Assembly (NCBI GenBank): GCA_947502595.1
Contig: CANNAM010000001.1
Span: 248,001-312,000 of the forward strand
Length of the DNA stretch: 64,000 nt
Direction of reading: 5' to 3'
DNA from: an uncultured Marinicella sp.
GTDB taxonomy: Bacteria > Pseudomonadota > Gammaproteobacteria > Xanthomonadales > Marinicellaceae
Position 1 is the stretch's first letter. Each line of letters opens with the position of its first letter. Both the position numbers and the translations under genes were made by a program. The notes under the pieces were generated by a model. That model was not told the origin of the DNA. It was given only the letters and a program-made list of their open reading frames with translations, and searched no databases. Positions 38,773 to 64,000 of the stretch are shown one piece after another.

Positions 38773-41700
38773 TTAGTTTTCAAAGCCATCTTTAAAAATC
38801 AAATCCAAATCAGCAACACAAAGGTTGAAAGTGTTGACGCCATTGTAATTCACTTGATCCAGATAAAACCCTTCTTCCTCGTAGCCCGGGTCTGAAGAAA
38901 AGCTCCAACGTATTTGCACTGTTTCACCTAGATAAGCCGACAGATCATGTGTAAATGAATCAAAACCAGTTGAAGCGCCACCAAATGCGCCTTGTGAAGC
39001 TGGGTAACCACAACCATTGATTGGTGGGTTCAGGGTAGAGCTGAAATCGCTGGGGTAGCCACCCACAGGAGGTAAGTCATTCCAGCTGTCACCACCGTCG
39101 GTAGATATTTCAACCACCACACCATCCCAATTGGCCTCAAGTTGATACCAAGCTTGGTAATCAACTGAAGGTGTGCCCGCATTCGGGATCGACAGTGCTG
39201 GTGACAGCAACCTCGAACAGGTATTTGAGGTGTAAGTGCTGGCCCCTTCATAGGTGCTGCGGTAACTTAGTGTGCCGTTGCTGGCACGGTCATTGGACAC
39301 CGACCAAGTGCCTGATAGGTTCATCAATAAATCATTGTCAACATCATCGCTGATGTTGCCAATGGCGCTTGAGGGCGTGCCTAGGGTGCTGCTGGCAAGT
39401 TCAGGTGAGGTCTCTGAAGCATTGCCATTGTTGACCGCTTCGATGCGATAAAAATACACTTGTTCAGCTGTAGCTGATATGTCACTGAATTGGCTTGCAT
39501 CGTTGACAGTAGTGAGTAGGTTTTCGCTGCCAGGAACAAAGTTATGCTCACTTGAACGGTAAATGTTGTAACTGATTTGGGTGTTATTAGGGCAGTTGCT
39601 GCTGGCTGCTGGCCAAGCCAAATCAATCGTGCAACTGGCACCTATGTTATTGACCACTGATGATTCTGCGGCACTGAACTGTGGTGGAAGTAAACAAGCT
39701 TGGTTAGACACTATGTCAGTACAATTACTGAAAGAACTTTCGAAATCACTGTTAAAAGCACGCACTTGATAAGCATAATTATAACCTCCTGTGGTGTCAG
39801 CATCTACAAAGGTGTTGCTGTTGTTTTGGCCGATGTAACGCAGACTGCCAGGCTCCATGTCAGCGCATGTGCCGTTACTGCGATACACTTCATAGTATGT
39901 GGCATTACTAGCGATTTCCCAGTTCAATCCGACACCTGTAGCACCTAAATCTGCAGCGTTTAGATCAGTTGGGTTGCCGATTACCATGGGGTTGTCACTG
40001 CCTAAATCACCTGAAACCACCAAAGCAAATCCTTGTTTTTGCGACTCCAAAGAGCCGTCACCTGGTACATTGGGTGCGGATACAGTGATTTGATAGTTGC
40101 CACTGACTGGGCTGATGAATCTGACTTGTTCTACGGTATTGATGGCATCTGCAGTGCCGCCTGTGGTAGAAACTGCAGCGCTGAAGTGATTGCCTAAATA
40201 AGTATCTACAGGGGTGGTGACAGTCAGGTCTAAGTTATTGACCAAGGTGATTCCAGAACCAGTTGGTCCAGCCACATCATACCAAACCAAGGTGGCGCGA
40301 AACTCTTGACCAGCCAATACATCAACATCGAATGTCAAACCCTCGGAAGTACTGAGGCCTGACTCATGGGTGATGTCCCAAAATTTAAATTTACGTTCAT
40401 CACCAGTAAAGTAGAGGGTGTTTTCTAGCCAGACTTTACCCCAACCAGCGCGGTTCGAAAAGAAGCCAGGGCCGGTATTGGTACCGTTGAGTAACATGGC
40501 TTTCATTAATTGGCCACTTGGCGTGATGCTGTCATTGCTGGTTTTTACCCCATTGGGGTAGAAGCCGTCCATAAAATATTGGCGCAATAAAGCTGTAGCA
40601 CCAGCAGTAATGGGCGTGGCCATGGAAGTGCCACTGGTGTGCCTGCGAGCTGGTGTGTCAATAACTGCTGAATTGTTTGCATCACCTGCAGCGGAACCAA
40701 TTGAGGTGCCGGTGGCAGATATATCGGGTTTCAATCGACCGTCATCGGTGGGGCCGCCGTTGGAATAACTGGCCACGGTATCGCTGTTACCATGGTTTAA
40801 AGCGCCTACTGTTAAACCACTTTTTGAGTTACCTGGTGAGCTGGTGGTGTTGGTGAATCCATTGTCATTACCTGCTGCAAAAATGATTATCATGTCATCC
40901 AATGAGCGCAAAGAATTGTCGAGATTTTGATCAGACGAAACATATTCCCCTAAGGTAACAGCCCCATAACTGTTTGAGTGGATTTTTGCTCCTGCAGCAT
41001 AAGCCTGTTGCCACATTGGTGATGAGCCTGAACCAGTCAAACCACTGTTACTGCCCAGGTCCTGAAATAAAATTTGGGCATTGGGAGCCATGCCATCATC
41101 ATTGTCATAGCCTGAATTGCTGGGTGATGAAGTGCTGGGCATCGGCGAGTCACAGGTGCCAATACAGTCTTCACGGTCACCAGCGACTGAACCCGATGTG
41201 TGGGTGCCATGATAGGTGCCGTTGTCATAAGCTGTAGCTCCTGGCATGGTCCAATAGGCGATGACTTTGTTGTTGGGATAAAGCGCTCCAGTTAATGGCG
41301 GTACCACGTTTTCTGCGTTGGTGATGGCTGTATTGATGCCAGAGCCGTCGTTATAGTTTACAAACCAGCCTTCGTTCCGGTCCAGGCCTGAGTCCGCTAC
41401 CGCCACAATTTGTCCTGAACCATAAATGCCTTGATCAAATAGGGGTGTTGTGTTGGGGCGATAAGTATTGCCAGAACCACCTGAATCAGAGGCAGCTTGA
41501 ACAGCTGATACGGCCTCAGTATTCATGAATTTTTCCGGATAGTAATGGTTAATCCATTGGATTGCTTCAAAAGAACTCAGCTTGTTTAAGGCTTGATTTA
41601 ACTGGTTGGCGGGTACTTCTATACCAATTTCACCACTGTTAGCAACGATGTTGGTTGGCACAAACATGGCGTTAGGAACGGCTTTTTTAATCAGGTTTTT

Positions 41701-42201
41701 AAGTTGTGTTGTTGGGTAATCTTTAAATGCTTTGACACTGAGGGTGTAGCTACTCAGGGCCGTCCGGTTGTTCAACCAAAGCTTGGGTGAAACTTTATAC
41801 CCACTGAGAAAGGGGCCGTACCAACGTATGTCTGCATTGAGTGCCAATAAGCCTTGATCGGCTTGCTGCCAATTAACTAAGTAGGCGTGGTTTGAAAAGG
41901 ATTGCATGACTTGAAAACCATGCTTCTTTAACCAAGTGGCATCACTGTTGCCTGCTGTGAATTGCACAATACCATAGTGCTGTGAGGCAGAGTTTGTGAT
42001 GCCACTGTGTTGAAAATCCAAACTTTGTTCTTTGGGATCAAATATTCCAGCAGCTAAGATCAAATCATAGCTGTTTATGGCTTGTTTTATTTGTACTGGA
42101 TTGGGTTGTGCAGCATAGAGTGTTTGAAGTTCGGCATGGGCTGTGGTGGTACTGAGCATGATTGCAGCCACCAGTGGTTTCAGGTTGATTTTTTTATTCA
42201 T
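38773..42201 (-). CDS. Secreted S8 (subtilisin-like) serine peptidase with Fn3-like modules and a C-terminal DLIFKDGFEN tail
   Basis: 1142 aa; signal peptide, VADSGLDR (Asp), YHGTHTSGSVAGD (His), SGTSMATPITAGA (Ser), C-terminal Fn3-like and sugar-binding-like segments, last residues LDLIFKDGFEN. Confidence 0.93.
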   Translation of the reverse strand: MNKKINLKPLVAAIMLSTTTAHAELQTLYAAQPNPVQIKQAINSYDLILAAGIFDPKEQSLDFQHSGITNSASQHYGIVQFTAGNSDATWLKKHGFQVMQSFSNHAYLVNWQQADQGLLALNADIRWYGPFLSGYKVSPKLWLNNRTALSSYTLSVKAFKDYPTTQLKNLIKKAVPNAMFVPTNIVANSGEIGIEVPANQLNQALNKLSSFEAIQWINHYYPEKFMNTEAVSAVQAASDSGGSGNTYRPNTTPLFDQGIYGSGQIVAVADSGLDRNEGWFVNYNDGSGINTAITNAENVVPPLTGALYPNNKVIAYWTMPGATAYDNGTYHGTHTSGSVAGDREDCIGTCDSPMPSTSSPSNSGYDNDDGMAPNAQILFQDLGSNSGLTGSGSSPMWQQAYAAGAKIHSNSYGAVTLGEYVSSDQNLDNSLRSLDDMIIIFAAGNDNGFTNTTSSPGNSKSGLTVGALNHGNSDTVASYSNGGPTDDGRLKPDISATGTSIGSAAGDANNSAVIDTPARRHTSGTSMATPITAGATALLRQYFMDGFYPNGVKTSNDSITPSGQLMKAMLLNGTNTGPGFFSNRAGWGKVWLENTLYFTGDERKFKFWDITHESGLSTSEGLTFDVDVLAGQEFRATLVWYDVAGPTGSGITLVNNLDLTVTTPVDTYLGNHFSAAVSTTGGTADAINTVEQVRFISPVSGNYQITVSAPNVPGDGSLESQKQGFALVVSGDLGSDNPMVIGNPTDLNAADLGATGVGLNWEIASNATYYEVYRSNGTCADMEPGSLRYIGQNNSNTFVDADTTGGYNYAYQVRAFNSDFESSFSNCTDIVSNQACLLPPQFSAAESSVVNNIGASCTIDLAWPAASSNCPNNTQISYNIYRSSEHNFVPGSENLLTTVNDASQFSDISATAEQVYFYRIEAVNNGNASETSPELASSTLGTPSSAIGNISDDVDNDLLMNLSGTWSVSNDRASNGTLSYRSTYEGASTYTSNTCSRLLSPALSIPNAGTPSVDYQAWYQLEANWDGVVVEISTDGGDSWNDLPPVGGYPSDFSSTLNPPINGCGYPASQGAFGGASTGFDSFTHDLSAYLGETVQIRWSFSSDPGYEEEGFYLDQVNYNGVNTFNLCVADLDLIFKDGFEN

Positions 42202-45268: not shown

Positions 45269-48200
45269 ATGGCACCATCCAAGTCACTTAATTGTATTGT
45301 TAGCATGCTTATGTTGTTAAATACTGGCCAAGCTGCTGTCAGCACAGGCTCAAGTACAGCACCTTATCTAGAGGGTTCTCAGTTTTCAGCGAATCAGCCG
45401 AACACCAGCCGTCATCACGGTCTACAGGTGAAACCAGGTCAAGTTCCAGTTGGGATTGCTCAATCTGAATGGCATAGTATCCAATCTCAGGTTAATCAGG
45501 CAGCCTACCAAGTTTATCCAAGCAAACAAGGTGGTTATACATCGTCAAATCCGGCCAATGGCTGGCATATTGTTTTTGGAATGGATGGCACCACCACTGT
45601 ATCTGCTTATGACAAAAGTACAGCTGAGGATTATAGGATTTCCTTGCACCTCAATTCGGTGGCCTATCAGTCCTCGGCGGCCAATCAAGTCAGTGGCTTT
45701 GCTCAACCTGCTGGTATCAGTTTTAATGGCGACCGATTGAATTACCATTGGAATGATGACATCACAGAGTATTGGATCAATTCTGAACAAAAGCTTGAAC
45801 AGTGGTTTGAGATCAAACAACGTCCGCAAAACAGTGGCGCAGACAGTTCGTCTGGCTTGTTGCAAGTGCAAATGAATTTGGATACAGACCTCGAAGTGAG
45901 TTTGATGGGCAACCGGCTGCGCTTAGGTGACATCACTTATGATCAGCTTAAAGTGTGGGATGCCAACGGACAAGCTGTCGATGCCCATTTGGATTTACAA
46001 GGCCAGCACCTCAGTTTATTGATTGAAGATGAACATGCCACCTATCCATTGACTGTTGACCCCAGTTTCACCCAACAAGCCTATTTGAAAGCAGCCAATG
46101 CCGAGGCAGGAGATGTTTTTGGCTCAGCGGTGGCAATTTTCGGTAATACTTTGGTGGTTGGCGCACCGCGTGAGGGTAATTCAGGTGCAGTTTATGTGTT
46201 TATTCGCACTGGTACGACATGGAGTCAGCAGGCCTATTTAAAAGCGGCTCAGCCCAGTGTCGATGATTTTTTTGGCATATCGGTGTCAATTTTTGCCGAT
46301 ACGCTGGTAGTAGGGGCGTCAGGTGAGGGCAGTATTGCTACCGGAGTGAACGGTAATGAAACTGATAACTCAGCCCCTGATTCAGGGGCAGCTTATGTGT
46401 TTGTGCGTAATTTTGGGGTCTGGACCCAGCAGGCCTATATAAAAGCCTCAAACACGGATGCCGGTGACAGGTTTGGTACTGCTGTGGCTTATTACAATGA
46501 AACACTGGTCATTGGTGCTTATAAAGAGGCCAGTATTGCCACGGGTATTGATGGTGATCAGAGTAACAACACCATAACCGAATCTGGTGCGGCATATGTG
46601 TTTGTTCGAAATGGTACGACTTGGTCGCAACAGGCCTATTTAAAAGCATCCAATACCGATGCTTTTGATTACTTTGGGCGGTCGGTATCGCTTTCATTAG
46701 ATACTGTGGTGATTGGGGCAACTGGTGAGGACAGTAACGCCACTGGGGTCAACGGTAACCAAGGCAGTCAATTACTCAGTGATTCAGGTGCAGCTTATGT
46801 CTTCGTGCGCAATGGCTCAACTTGGTCGCAACAAGCTTACGTTAAAGCCTCTAATACGGGTTTCGGCGATGCATTTGGTGGTGCTGTTCACATTTTGAAT
46901 AATACCTTAGTGATCGGAGCAGCCAGTGAGGACAGTCACGCCACTGGCGTAGGTGGTGATCAGTTCAATAATTCTGCCGAAGGCTCAGGTGCGGTTTATG
47001 TGTTTGTTCGCGATGGCCTGTCATGGTCACAGCAAGCTTATTTAAAAGCGTCCAATACAGGTACTGGTGATGGTTTTGGCGACGCCATAGCGGTCCATTT
47101 TGATTCATTGTTGATTGGCGCGCCAAGAGAGGACAGTGATGCCATAGGGGTGAATGGCAATCAGACCAATGATGCCGCCAATAACTCCGGTGCTGCCTAT
47201 GTTTTTGTTCGTTCTGGTTCAACTTGGTCTCAGCAAGCCTATCTAAAAGCTTCCAATACGGGATCTGGTGATTTTTTTGGTGATGCGGTGTCTTACTCAG
47301 GAGGCAGTATATCGATTGGTGCTATTGGTGAGTCCAGCAACGCCACTGGAATCAATGGCAATCAGGCGAGTAACTCAGCTGCTGATGCGGGTGCTGCCTA
47401 TGTCACAAGTGTTGCTTACAAAGTGGGCGGTACGGTCACTGGATTGGCCTCAGGTAACAGTGTGACCCTGCAGAACAATGGTACAGATGACTTGAACATC
47501 AGTGCCAATGGTTTGTTCTCTTTTCCTAACGCACTGCCTGCGCCGGCTACGAACTATGCGGTAACGGTTCTGAATCAGCCAACCACGCCCAATCAAACCT
47601 GTACTGTAGACAATGCCAGTGGTACCGTTACGAATACAGACATTAATGATGTAGTGGTGAGCTGCAATGCCATACCGACTATTGTGGCTGATTTTTATAC
47701 CACACTTGAGGACTTGGAACTACAGGTACTGGATAAGGATGGTCAACAAACCCCTGATCCAAATGATGACAGTGTCTTGGTTAATGATTCTGACCCTGAT
47801 TTCAATGAGTTGTTTGTGGTCACTCAAGGTATTTTCACTGCTGGCGGCGTTGGCGGTTTAATTCAAATGTTTGATAATGGTACCTTTATATACCAACCAC
47901 CTGATGATGCATTTGGTACCGCGACCTTTGATTATGAAGTCAGTGATGGCTTGGTAACGGTATCCGCCCAATTGGAGATTGATGTATTATCAGTCAATGA
48001 TGCACCGAGCTTTTCTTTGGCCGGTGATGTAGAACTGGATTCTGCTGACTTAATTAGCAATCCACTGGAAATCAACGGGTTTATCACTGGTTTTAACTTA
48101 GGCCCTGCCAATGAATCGACACAAGTGATAGATGAATACGAAGTATTGATTCAGTCGGATACAGACAACATTGTGAATGCGGTTACAGTGGACAATGAGG

Positions 48201-48631
48201 GTGTTTTAGAGATTGATTTCACCACCAATACGGGGGTGGCTTTAATCGATGTGACTTTACAGGATGATGGGGGTACAGCACTTGGAGGTGTTGATAGGTC
48301 AGCGGCACAATCATTTTTTATTGCTTTTAATGATGACCTGATTTTTATCAATGGATTTGAAATCTCCAATGATGGGTTGATTTTACAGTACATTAATCAG
48401 ATCCAGCAAGGCGCTGCTAATCTGGATTTTCCTGTCTATGATGTGGCTGTTGATGCGGTTGAATTTTATGGAGAGTGGTATTTTATTAGCGGTGATCATC
48501 AACAACCCAGAAAGCTGCAAACATTCGAGCATTGGTTAAAAGAAGTGCTGTTATACCAAGCGCCTTTTGTTGATTATGATAATGACGGTGTAGAAAATTA
48601 CTTGGATCAGCAACCATTTAATGGCCAATAA
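45269..48631 (+). CDS. Large secreted FG-GAP beta-propeller protein with C-terminal Ig/cadherin-like domains and a DLIFINGFE motif
   Basis: 1120 aa; signal peptide; repeated WSQQAYLKASNTxxxDxFGxAVxxxxxTLVIGAxxEDS...GAAYVFVR; cadherin-like/Ig-like region (DDSVLVNDSDPDFNELFVV); VTLQDDGGTALGGVD; DDLIFINGFE; TSP3-like DYDNDGVENYLDQQP. Confidence 0.9.
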   Translation: MAPSKSLNCIVSMLMLLNTGQAAVSTGSSTAPYLEGSQFSANQPNTSRHHGLQVKPGQVPVGIAQSEWHSIQSQVNQAAYQVYPSKQGGYTSSNPANGWHIVFGMDGTTTVSAYDKSTAEDYRISLHLNSVAYQSSAANQVSGFAQPAGISFNGDRLNYHWNDDITEYWINSEQKLEQWFEIKQRPQNSGADSSSGLLQVQMNLDTDLEVSLMGNRLRLGDITYDQLKVWDANGQAVDAHLDLQGQHLSLLIEDEHATYPLTVDPSFTQQAYLKAANAEAGDVFGSAVAIFGNTLVVGAPREGNSGAVYVFIRTGTTWSQQAYLKAAQPSVDDFFGISVSIFADTLVVGASGEGSIATGVNGNETDNSAPDSGAAYVFVRNFGVWTQQAYIKASNTDAGDRFGTAVAYYNETLVIGAYKEASIATGIDGDQSNNTITESGAAYVFVRNGTTWSQQAYLKASNTDAFDYFGRSVSLSLDTVVIGATGEDSNATGVNGNQGSQLLSDSGAAYVFVRNGSTWSQQAYVKASNTGFGDAFGGAVHILNNTLVIGAASEDSHATGVGGDQFNNSAEGSGAVYVFVRDGLSWSQQAYLKASNTGTGDGFGDAIAVHFDSLLIGAPREDSDAIGVNGNQTNDAANNSGAAYVFVRSGSTWSQQAYLKASNTGSGDFFGDAVSYSGGSISIGAIGESSNATGINGNQASNSAADAGAAYVTSVAYKVGGTVTGLASGNSVTLQNNGTDDLNISANGLFSFPNALPAPATNYAVTVLNQPTTPNQTCTVDNASGTVTNTDINDVVVSCNAIPTIVADFYTTLEDLELQVLDKDGQQTPDPNDDSVLVNDSDPDFNELFVVTQGIFTAGGVGGLIQMFDNGTFIYQPPDDAFGTATFDYEVSDGLVTVSAQLEIDVLSVNDAPSFSLAGDVELDSADLISNPLEINGFITGFNLGPANESTQVIDEYEVLIQSDTDNIVNAVTVDNEGVLEIDFTTNTGVALIDVTLQDDGGTALGGVDRSAAQSFFIAFNDDLIFINGFEISNDGLILQYINQIQQGAANLDFPVYDVAVDAVEFYGEWYFISGDHQQPRKLQTFEHWLKEVLLYQAPFVDYDNDGVENYLDQQPFNGQ
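46070..47408 (+). repeat. FG-GAP coding repeats, about 7 units, 201-bp period over the last six motif occurrences
   Basis: The TGG codon of WxQQAYxKA lies at 46220, 46421, 46622, 46823, 47024 and 47225, i.e. exactly 201 bp apart five times. The first unit (46070 to 46223) is only 153 bp. Confidence 0.9.
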
Positions 48632-63788: not shown

Positions 63789-64000
63789 TCATTGACAAAC
63801 TTCAGTGGTAACCACATCTTCGAAACCATTTCTGAAGATGTAATCTTCAACATTGATTTCAATTTGCAGTGCTGTACTGGTATCAATGCCACCATTGGTG
63901 GTACCGCCATCATCTTGTAAAGCAACGCTTACTGTAGCAGAACCCAGGTTGCCGGCATAGACAGCATTGATGGTACCGTCATTGTTGACATCAACTGAAG
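63789..64000 (-). CDS. C-terminal fragment of a secreted Ig-like repeat protein carrying a DYIFRNGFE motif (5' end outside window)
   Basis: My reverse-strand translation: ...SVDVNNDGTINAVYAGNLGSATVSVALQDDGGTTNGGIDTSTALQIEINVEDYIFRNGFEDVVTTEVCQ*. Not in the ORF track. Confidence 0.75.
   Translation of the reverse strand, partial: SVDVNNDGTINAVYAGNLGSATVSVALQDDGGTTNGGIDTSTALQIEINVEDYIFRNGFEDVVTTEVCQ

Follow-up and report, generated by a model that had tools for sequence, protein, structure and literature searches.

A nine-residue peptide with the consensus D-[LVI]-I-F-x-[DN]-G-F-E, located at the C-terminus of exported-type proteins or within a few residues of it, is, as judged from sequence, a real, abundant, and lineage-restricted C-terminal sorting-type signal. 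Its co-distribution with one lineage of type II secretion system (T2SS), which we call T2SS-a, is well supported. We consider it probable, at roughly 60%, that this tag is a linear signal that targets proteins from their C-terminus to T2SS-a, for export or for display on the surface. How a T2SS chooses its cargo is a long-standing open question, and a tag of nine residues makes the question directly testable.

The tag in the window and in its genome

The window is the whole 64-kb stretch of DNA that was analyzed. An earlier note on it described a nonapeptide at the C-terminus of an S8 protease and two further copies, all in secreted proteins. The positions and the differing codons are borne out (Table 1), and a window search that allowed at most one mismatch returned three matches, a number reached in 0 of 100 shuffles. 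The protease terminates in LDLIFKDGFEN, with a single N between tag and stop codon, so this copy is indeed terminal, but the second lies 89 aa and the third 9 aa from the stop. The full-length subtilase that bears the third copy (1135 aa, at L037) has the C-terminus DYIFRNGFEDVVTTEVCQ. Beyond the internal copy, the protein runs on for 89 aa (48362-48628, plus strand) and terminates in a calcium-type DYDNDGVENYLD stretch; these 89 aa may have been added beyond a one-time C-terminus.

Table 1. Tag copies in the 64-kb window and the proteins that bear them
Feature	Position	Strand	Details
C-terminal tag DLIFKDGFE	38779-38805 (S8 protease end including the extra N: 38776..38805)	-	Stop 38773-38775
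Tagged 1142-aa secreted S8 protease	38773..42201	-	Peptidase_S8 aa 261-588, InhA-like MAM domain aa 997-1120, tag last
Internal tag copy DLIFINGFE	48335..48361	+	89 aa ahead of stop
1120-aa protein bearing the internal tag copy	45269..48631	+	Signal-peptide-like start, tandem-95-type repeat
Tag copy DYIFRNGFE	63819..63845	-	9 aa ahead of stop; C-terminus ...DVVTTEVCQ
C-terminal part of 1135-aa subtilase leaving the window	63789..63998	-	Complete as L037:6974-10378

Across the 3.24-Mb genome, which is of Marinicella type and belongs to the order Lysobacterales, the exact pattern IFx[DN]GFE matched 30 times and its reversed control 0 times; a looser pattern that included the stop codon matched 81 times, again with 0 matches for the control. 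The genome-wide search that the earlier note had proposed thus gave matches far above chance, and a chance origin of the tag is ruled out by the reversed-pattern controls together with the window shuffles. Among the 29 distinct tagged proteins of the genome, 16 terminate exactly at the E of the tag and 9 carry 1 to 4 residues after it, placing the tag 0 to 4 residues from the stop in 25 of the 29. Two others have 9 to 11 residues after the tag, and two hold the motif internally, 89 or 176 aa from the end.

Synonymous codons differ at every invariant position of the tag, and selection therefore acts on the peptide. This variation rules out a DNA-level repeat as the origin of the tag, in agreement with the view of the earlier note that the motif is conserved as protein. 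Flanking the core, the only strong preferences are D at -2 and an aliphatic residue at -1, both partly biased by the search pattern, and the linker ahead of the tag is not conserved. Some proteins carry the tag in tandem, for example, one that ends in DSIFRNGFEGDLIFANGFEGDPEPPLCPSF; at the protein ends of L048, L049, L092, L120, and L172, two tandem tags lie about 10 to 15 residues apart at the C-terminus. In one tagged beta-helix protein modeled with AlphaFold2, the body has a confidence of about 90, and residues 420-437, which include the tag, fall below 50 and have no secondary structure; the alignment behind the model had only 15 rows, which makes this weak evidence. The tail is conserved but predicted to be disordered. 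At L051:7473-10322 (minus strand), DLIFKDGFE, 176 aa from the end, opens a jelly-roll-like domain, and a similar string, IFHDDVENG (IFHDDVENG..GW), starts another jelly-roll-like domain in L041. The tag might be derived from the first strand of such a domain.

All 28 full-length tagged proteins begin with a hydrophobic, signal-peptide-like stretch. By a crude hydrophobicity rule, used for the signal-peptide calls in place of SignalP, such an N-terminus is present in 26/28 tagged proteins versus 92/236 other ORFs; since the rule over-calls, the contrast is conservative. Matches in cytoplasmic proteins had been named in the earlier note as a result that would speak against a sorting signal, and the tag-bearing proteins are of the exported type. 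The domains ahead of the tag comprise S8, M14, Endonuclease I with LTD, reprolysin, beta-helix, FG-GAP, and P-domain; a choice-of-anchor Q domain is found in 7 of the 28, and the set includes look-alikes of rhombosortase-, myxosortase-, and T9SS-dependent M36 proteases. Enrichment, exported carriers, and a near-terminal position after unrelated folds all lend support to the C-terminal sorting, anchoring, or secretion signal that the earlier note had suspected.

Individual members of the set are also worth recording. The tagged LTD and Endonuclease I protein at L047:4992-7163 (minus strand) is an analogue of the GlyGly-CTERM extracellular nucleases in Vibrio. One tagged protein matches the hydrazine-synthase-alpha middle-domain model, and a tagged protein of 979 aa (L050:7085-10021, plus strand) has a haem-type CxxCH site. 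A choice-of-anchor Q protein of genome G415 (L272) has an IPTL-CTERM-like tail; this genome is tagged as well, giving two kinds of tail per cell.

Distribution of the tag and of a second type II secretion system

A search of 369 genomes of the class gave 0 to 2 matches per genome outside the order, randomly placed in ORFs and not C-terminal; matches within the order are C-terminal. The strict tag is present in 109 of 299 genomes of the order, patchily, with up to 74 copies per genome, and the named records that bear it are Marinicella, Dokdonella, Pseudofulvimonas, and Lysobacterales bins. With the pattern relaxed to IFx[DN][GR]F[ED], the count rises to 136 in one genome. A genome of genus f190/g281 (G401) has 0 strict tags, and in the stretches of it that were read, 15 proteins, including S8 proteases and choice-of-anchor Q proteins, end in [ILV]Fx[DNS]DRF[EQ], 1 to 8 aa from the stop, one with a terminal D instead. 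This lineage has switched its tag genome-wide to DRFE; if a single receptor served these unrelated proteins, their tags would be expected to change together in this way. The tail VFTDGYEN is found on an S8 protease of family f188. The strict pattern was therefore the wrong definition of tag absence, given that f190/g281 uses DRFE and f188 uses DGYE. In the tag-negative genomes G396 and G464, the cargo domain terminates without a tail.

The earlier note had suggested looking for a co-occurring processing enzyme. Of the sortase-type families profiled, exosortase and rhombosortase, neither co-occurs with the tag; what does co-occur is a second T2SS. Tag-positive genomes have two full-length type II secretins (GspD) and most tag-negative genomes have one, and GspG repeats the pattern, with two lineages versus one. 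GspD-b is the Xps-type lipoprotein secretin, present almost everywhere. GspD-a forms its own clade, with a tree that roughly matches the families, and is encoded in a gspC-D-E-F cluster (L302; about 62.9-68.3 kb of genome C1, outside the window). The T2SS-a pseudopilin genes, gspG and its neighbors, are at a separate locus (L442). A PDZ domain is present in five of the six T2SS-a GspC proteins read and in none of the Xps-type ones. These genes (GspC with PDZ, D, E, F, and G) make T2SS-a a canonical T2SS, present in addition to the near-universal Xps-type system and distinct from it. A further divergent clade of T2SS-type secretins, distinct from GspD-a and GspD-b, is found at L355 (G408) and L370 (G439).

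We scored a genome as tag positive if it had at least three relaxed matches and as GspD-a positive at a threshold of E about 1e-85, which excludes the Xcs-like matches of genus f2/g3; a shorter, 86%-identical GspD-a fragment in G476 was counted as present. By these rules, the 299 genomes comprise 104 with both tag and GspD-a, 13 with the tag only, 14 with GspD-a only, and 168 with neither, counts that are inflated by phylogeny, as are those that follow. Among the 225 genomes that are at least 95% complete, the corresponding numbers are 64, 2, 6, and 153, such that GspD-a is present in 64/66 tag-bearing genomes and absent from 153/159 others. Counted by genus, they are 23, 1, 4, and 43. A tree built from the GspD-b proteins of 39 genomes shows four independent lineages without GspD-a, and the tag is absent in the same four (4/4); with only four independent contrasts, the sign test gives a P value of 0.125 and has limited power. 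One of the four, G417, is sister to a tag-rich genome.

The correspondence has exceptions on both sides. GspD-a is present with fewer than three tags in G446, G457, G592, G621, and others; among the GspD-a-positive, low-tag genomes, G373, G382, and G421 have the variant tails VFTDGYE or RIYKDDFD. G427 and G460 (about 97 to 98% complete) have 7 and 3 tag matches, respectively, without a GspD-a match. The profiling covered only a few gene families, and the real partner of the tag could be a different gene that disappeared along with T2SS-a. A complete relative without a type II secretin or GspG match (G384, family f1, genus g273) is also without the tag; its single relaxed match falls in a DnaK-like frame.

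Several other candidates for the reader of the tag were rejected. Rhombosortase is above its cut-off only in the tag-negative genomes G165 and G417. Exosortase is absent from many tag-positive genomes and, taken as a control on the same GspD-b tree, gave two phylogeny-aware pairs for and two against. An enzyme encoded beside the tagged genes was rejected as well, for no neighbor recurs across 169 loci. Thus, for the sortase-type families profiled, exosortase and rhombosortase, there is no link to the tag.

How the tag might be read

When isolated native tails were searched, no NCBIfam or Pfam model covered the tag, and a literature search for the string returned text noise only. The comparison that the earlier note drew with CTERM-type signals holds for role and fails for architecture. 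The tag is a C-terminal signature on signal-peptide proteins, as CTERM signals are, but the transmembrane helix and basic tail are missing: the last 45 aa of the tagged proteins have no membrane-spanning stretch (highest 17-residue Kyte-Doolittle mean, 1.45) and no basic cluster, with a net charge of -1 to -5 over the last 12 residues in 27/28. Type I secretion with a C-terminal signal handles cargo that lacks an N-terminal signal peptide, and the tagged proteins have signal-peptide-like N-termini. The features expected of T2SS substrates are there, namely, a signal-peptide-like start and a T2SS that is present and co-distributed.

Export by Sec, folding in the periplasm, and then transport by a T2SS are an established route, and canonical T2SS elsewhere function without such a tag. 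Along this route, the tagged proteins would cross the inner membrane via the Sec pathway and fold in the periplasm. T2SS-a would then select the folded cargo through its exposed tail and export it to the cell surface or the medium, where it might be released, anchored, or cleaved. The reader could be the PDZ domain of T2SS-a GspC, our first candidate, or the secretin. No conserved signal has been identified for the outer-membrane transport step, and a likely docking site is GspC, in its second periplasmic region, which is often a PDZ domain (PMC11981180); the EpsC PDZ domain is required for one substrate (PMC12369372). Given this role of PDZ domains in docking and the presence of one in T2SS-a GspC, we propose that the exposed tail brings the cargo to dock with T2SS-a, with GspC as the foremost candidate reader. 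In classical PDZ ligands, the C-terminal residue is hydrophobic. The tag ends in E and tolerates 1 to 8 extra residues, and it therefore has no hydrophobic free carboxyl end, so binding could be non-classical or could be to the secretin.

A separate enzyme might instead read the tag as a surface-anchoring or processing signal, after or during export, with T2SS-a only bringing the cargo out. The cargo does overlap with known anchoring systems, through choice-of-anchor Q and the rhombosortase-, myxosortase-, and T9SS-dependent M36 look-alikes; the same Q domain bears the IPTL-CTERM-like tail in G415; and a C-terminal tag and a T2SS act together in GlyGly-CTERM (PMC13393428) and MYXO-CTERM (PMC11980579). 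However, the tagged tails are without a basic end, and they lack a membrane-spanning segment that would keep the protein within reach of an enzyme in the membrane; this lack disfavors an intramembrane sorting enzyme. The patchy exosortase, the rhombosortase confined to two tag-negative genomes, and the lack of a recurring neighbor gene also count against this explanation, and we regard it as unlikely.

We consider it quite improbable that the tag and T2SS-a are simply long-standing traits of the order that were retained or lost jointly, along with many further genes, for ecological reasons such as large secretomes, without physical contact. Both traits look ancestral, the GspD-a tree roughly tracks families, and the joint losses counted are only four. 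Yet mere loss of secreted proteins does not explain why the tag is lost from homologues that remain (G396 and G464) or why it is remodeled in concert, and neither the other T2SS nor exosortase nor rhombosortase follows the distribution of the tag. Most improbable of all is a purely structural role without targeting, in which the tag, as a beta-strand or calcium-binding turn, would complete the preceding fold or aid periplasmic folding. The internal L051 copy and the IFHDDVENG..GW string, both of which begin jelly-roll-like domains, would fit such a role; a tag that follows many unrelated folds after non-conserved linkers, occurs in tandem, is predicted to be disordered in the single model made, and changes in concert across a genome would not.

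The reading we prefer therefore is still that of a targeting signal for T2SS-a. The occurrence of the tag on dozens of unrelated proteins, nearly confined to one T2SS lineage, suggests a candidate "address label." A stronger version is tentative and falls somewhat short of even odds: the tag may be a general, transferable linear T2SS export signal, the first of its kind, read by the T2SS itself (GspC PDZ or secretin), with the lineage dialects DGFE, DRFE, and DGYE having co-evolved with the machine. If true, the exported proteins of a whole order could be named from sequence alone, and engineered enzymes could be given the tag for export.

Comparison with known systems

Like the tag, the C-terminal domains (CTDs) of T9SS cargo are C-terminal signals that stand apart from the cargo fold and are carried by many unrelated signal-peptide proteins. 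T9SS CTDs are whole domains of about 70 to 100 aa, whereas the tag has about 9 aa; no T9SS tail model is among the NCBIfam matches, and the one T9SS-dependent M36 protease model that matched a tagged protein did so far below its cut-off. MYXO-CTERM with myxosortase (PMC11980579) likewise marks dozens of signal-peptide proteins at the C-terminus, is restricted to a lineage, and is linked to T2SS, but its invariant Cys, its transmembrane helix, and its Arg-rich end have no counterpart in the tag, which is acidic. GlyGly-CTERM with rhombosortase in Vibrio cholerae (PMC13393428) shares with the tag a short independent C-terminal motif after a linker, Sec-exported proteases and nucleases as a genome-wide cargo family, and action with a T2SS. 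It differs in being tripartite, with a transmembrane helix, and in being cleaved by rhombosortase; the tag has no helix, and rhombosortase does not track it. Known T2SS recognition, through the loops of Pel3 (PMC7949064) or the Ig fold of VesB with the EpsC PDZ domain (PMC12369372), resembles what we propose in that folded periplasmic cargo is selected, flexible elements take part, and the GspC PDZ domain can be required. The known determinants are composite, structural, and protein specific, whereas the determinant proposed here would be one linear C-terminal string common to the tagged cargo.
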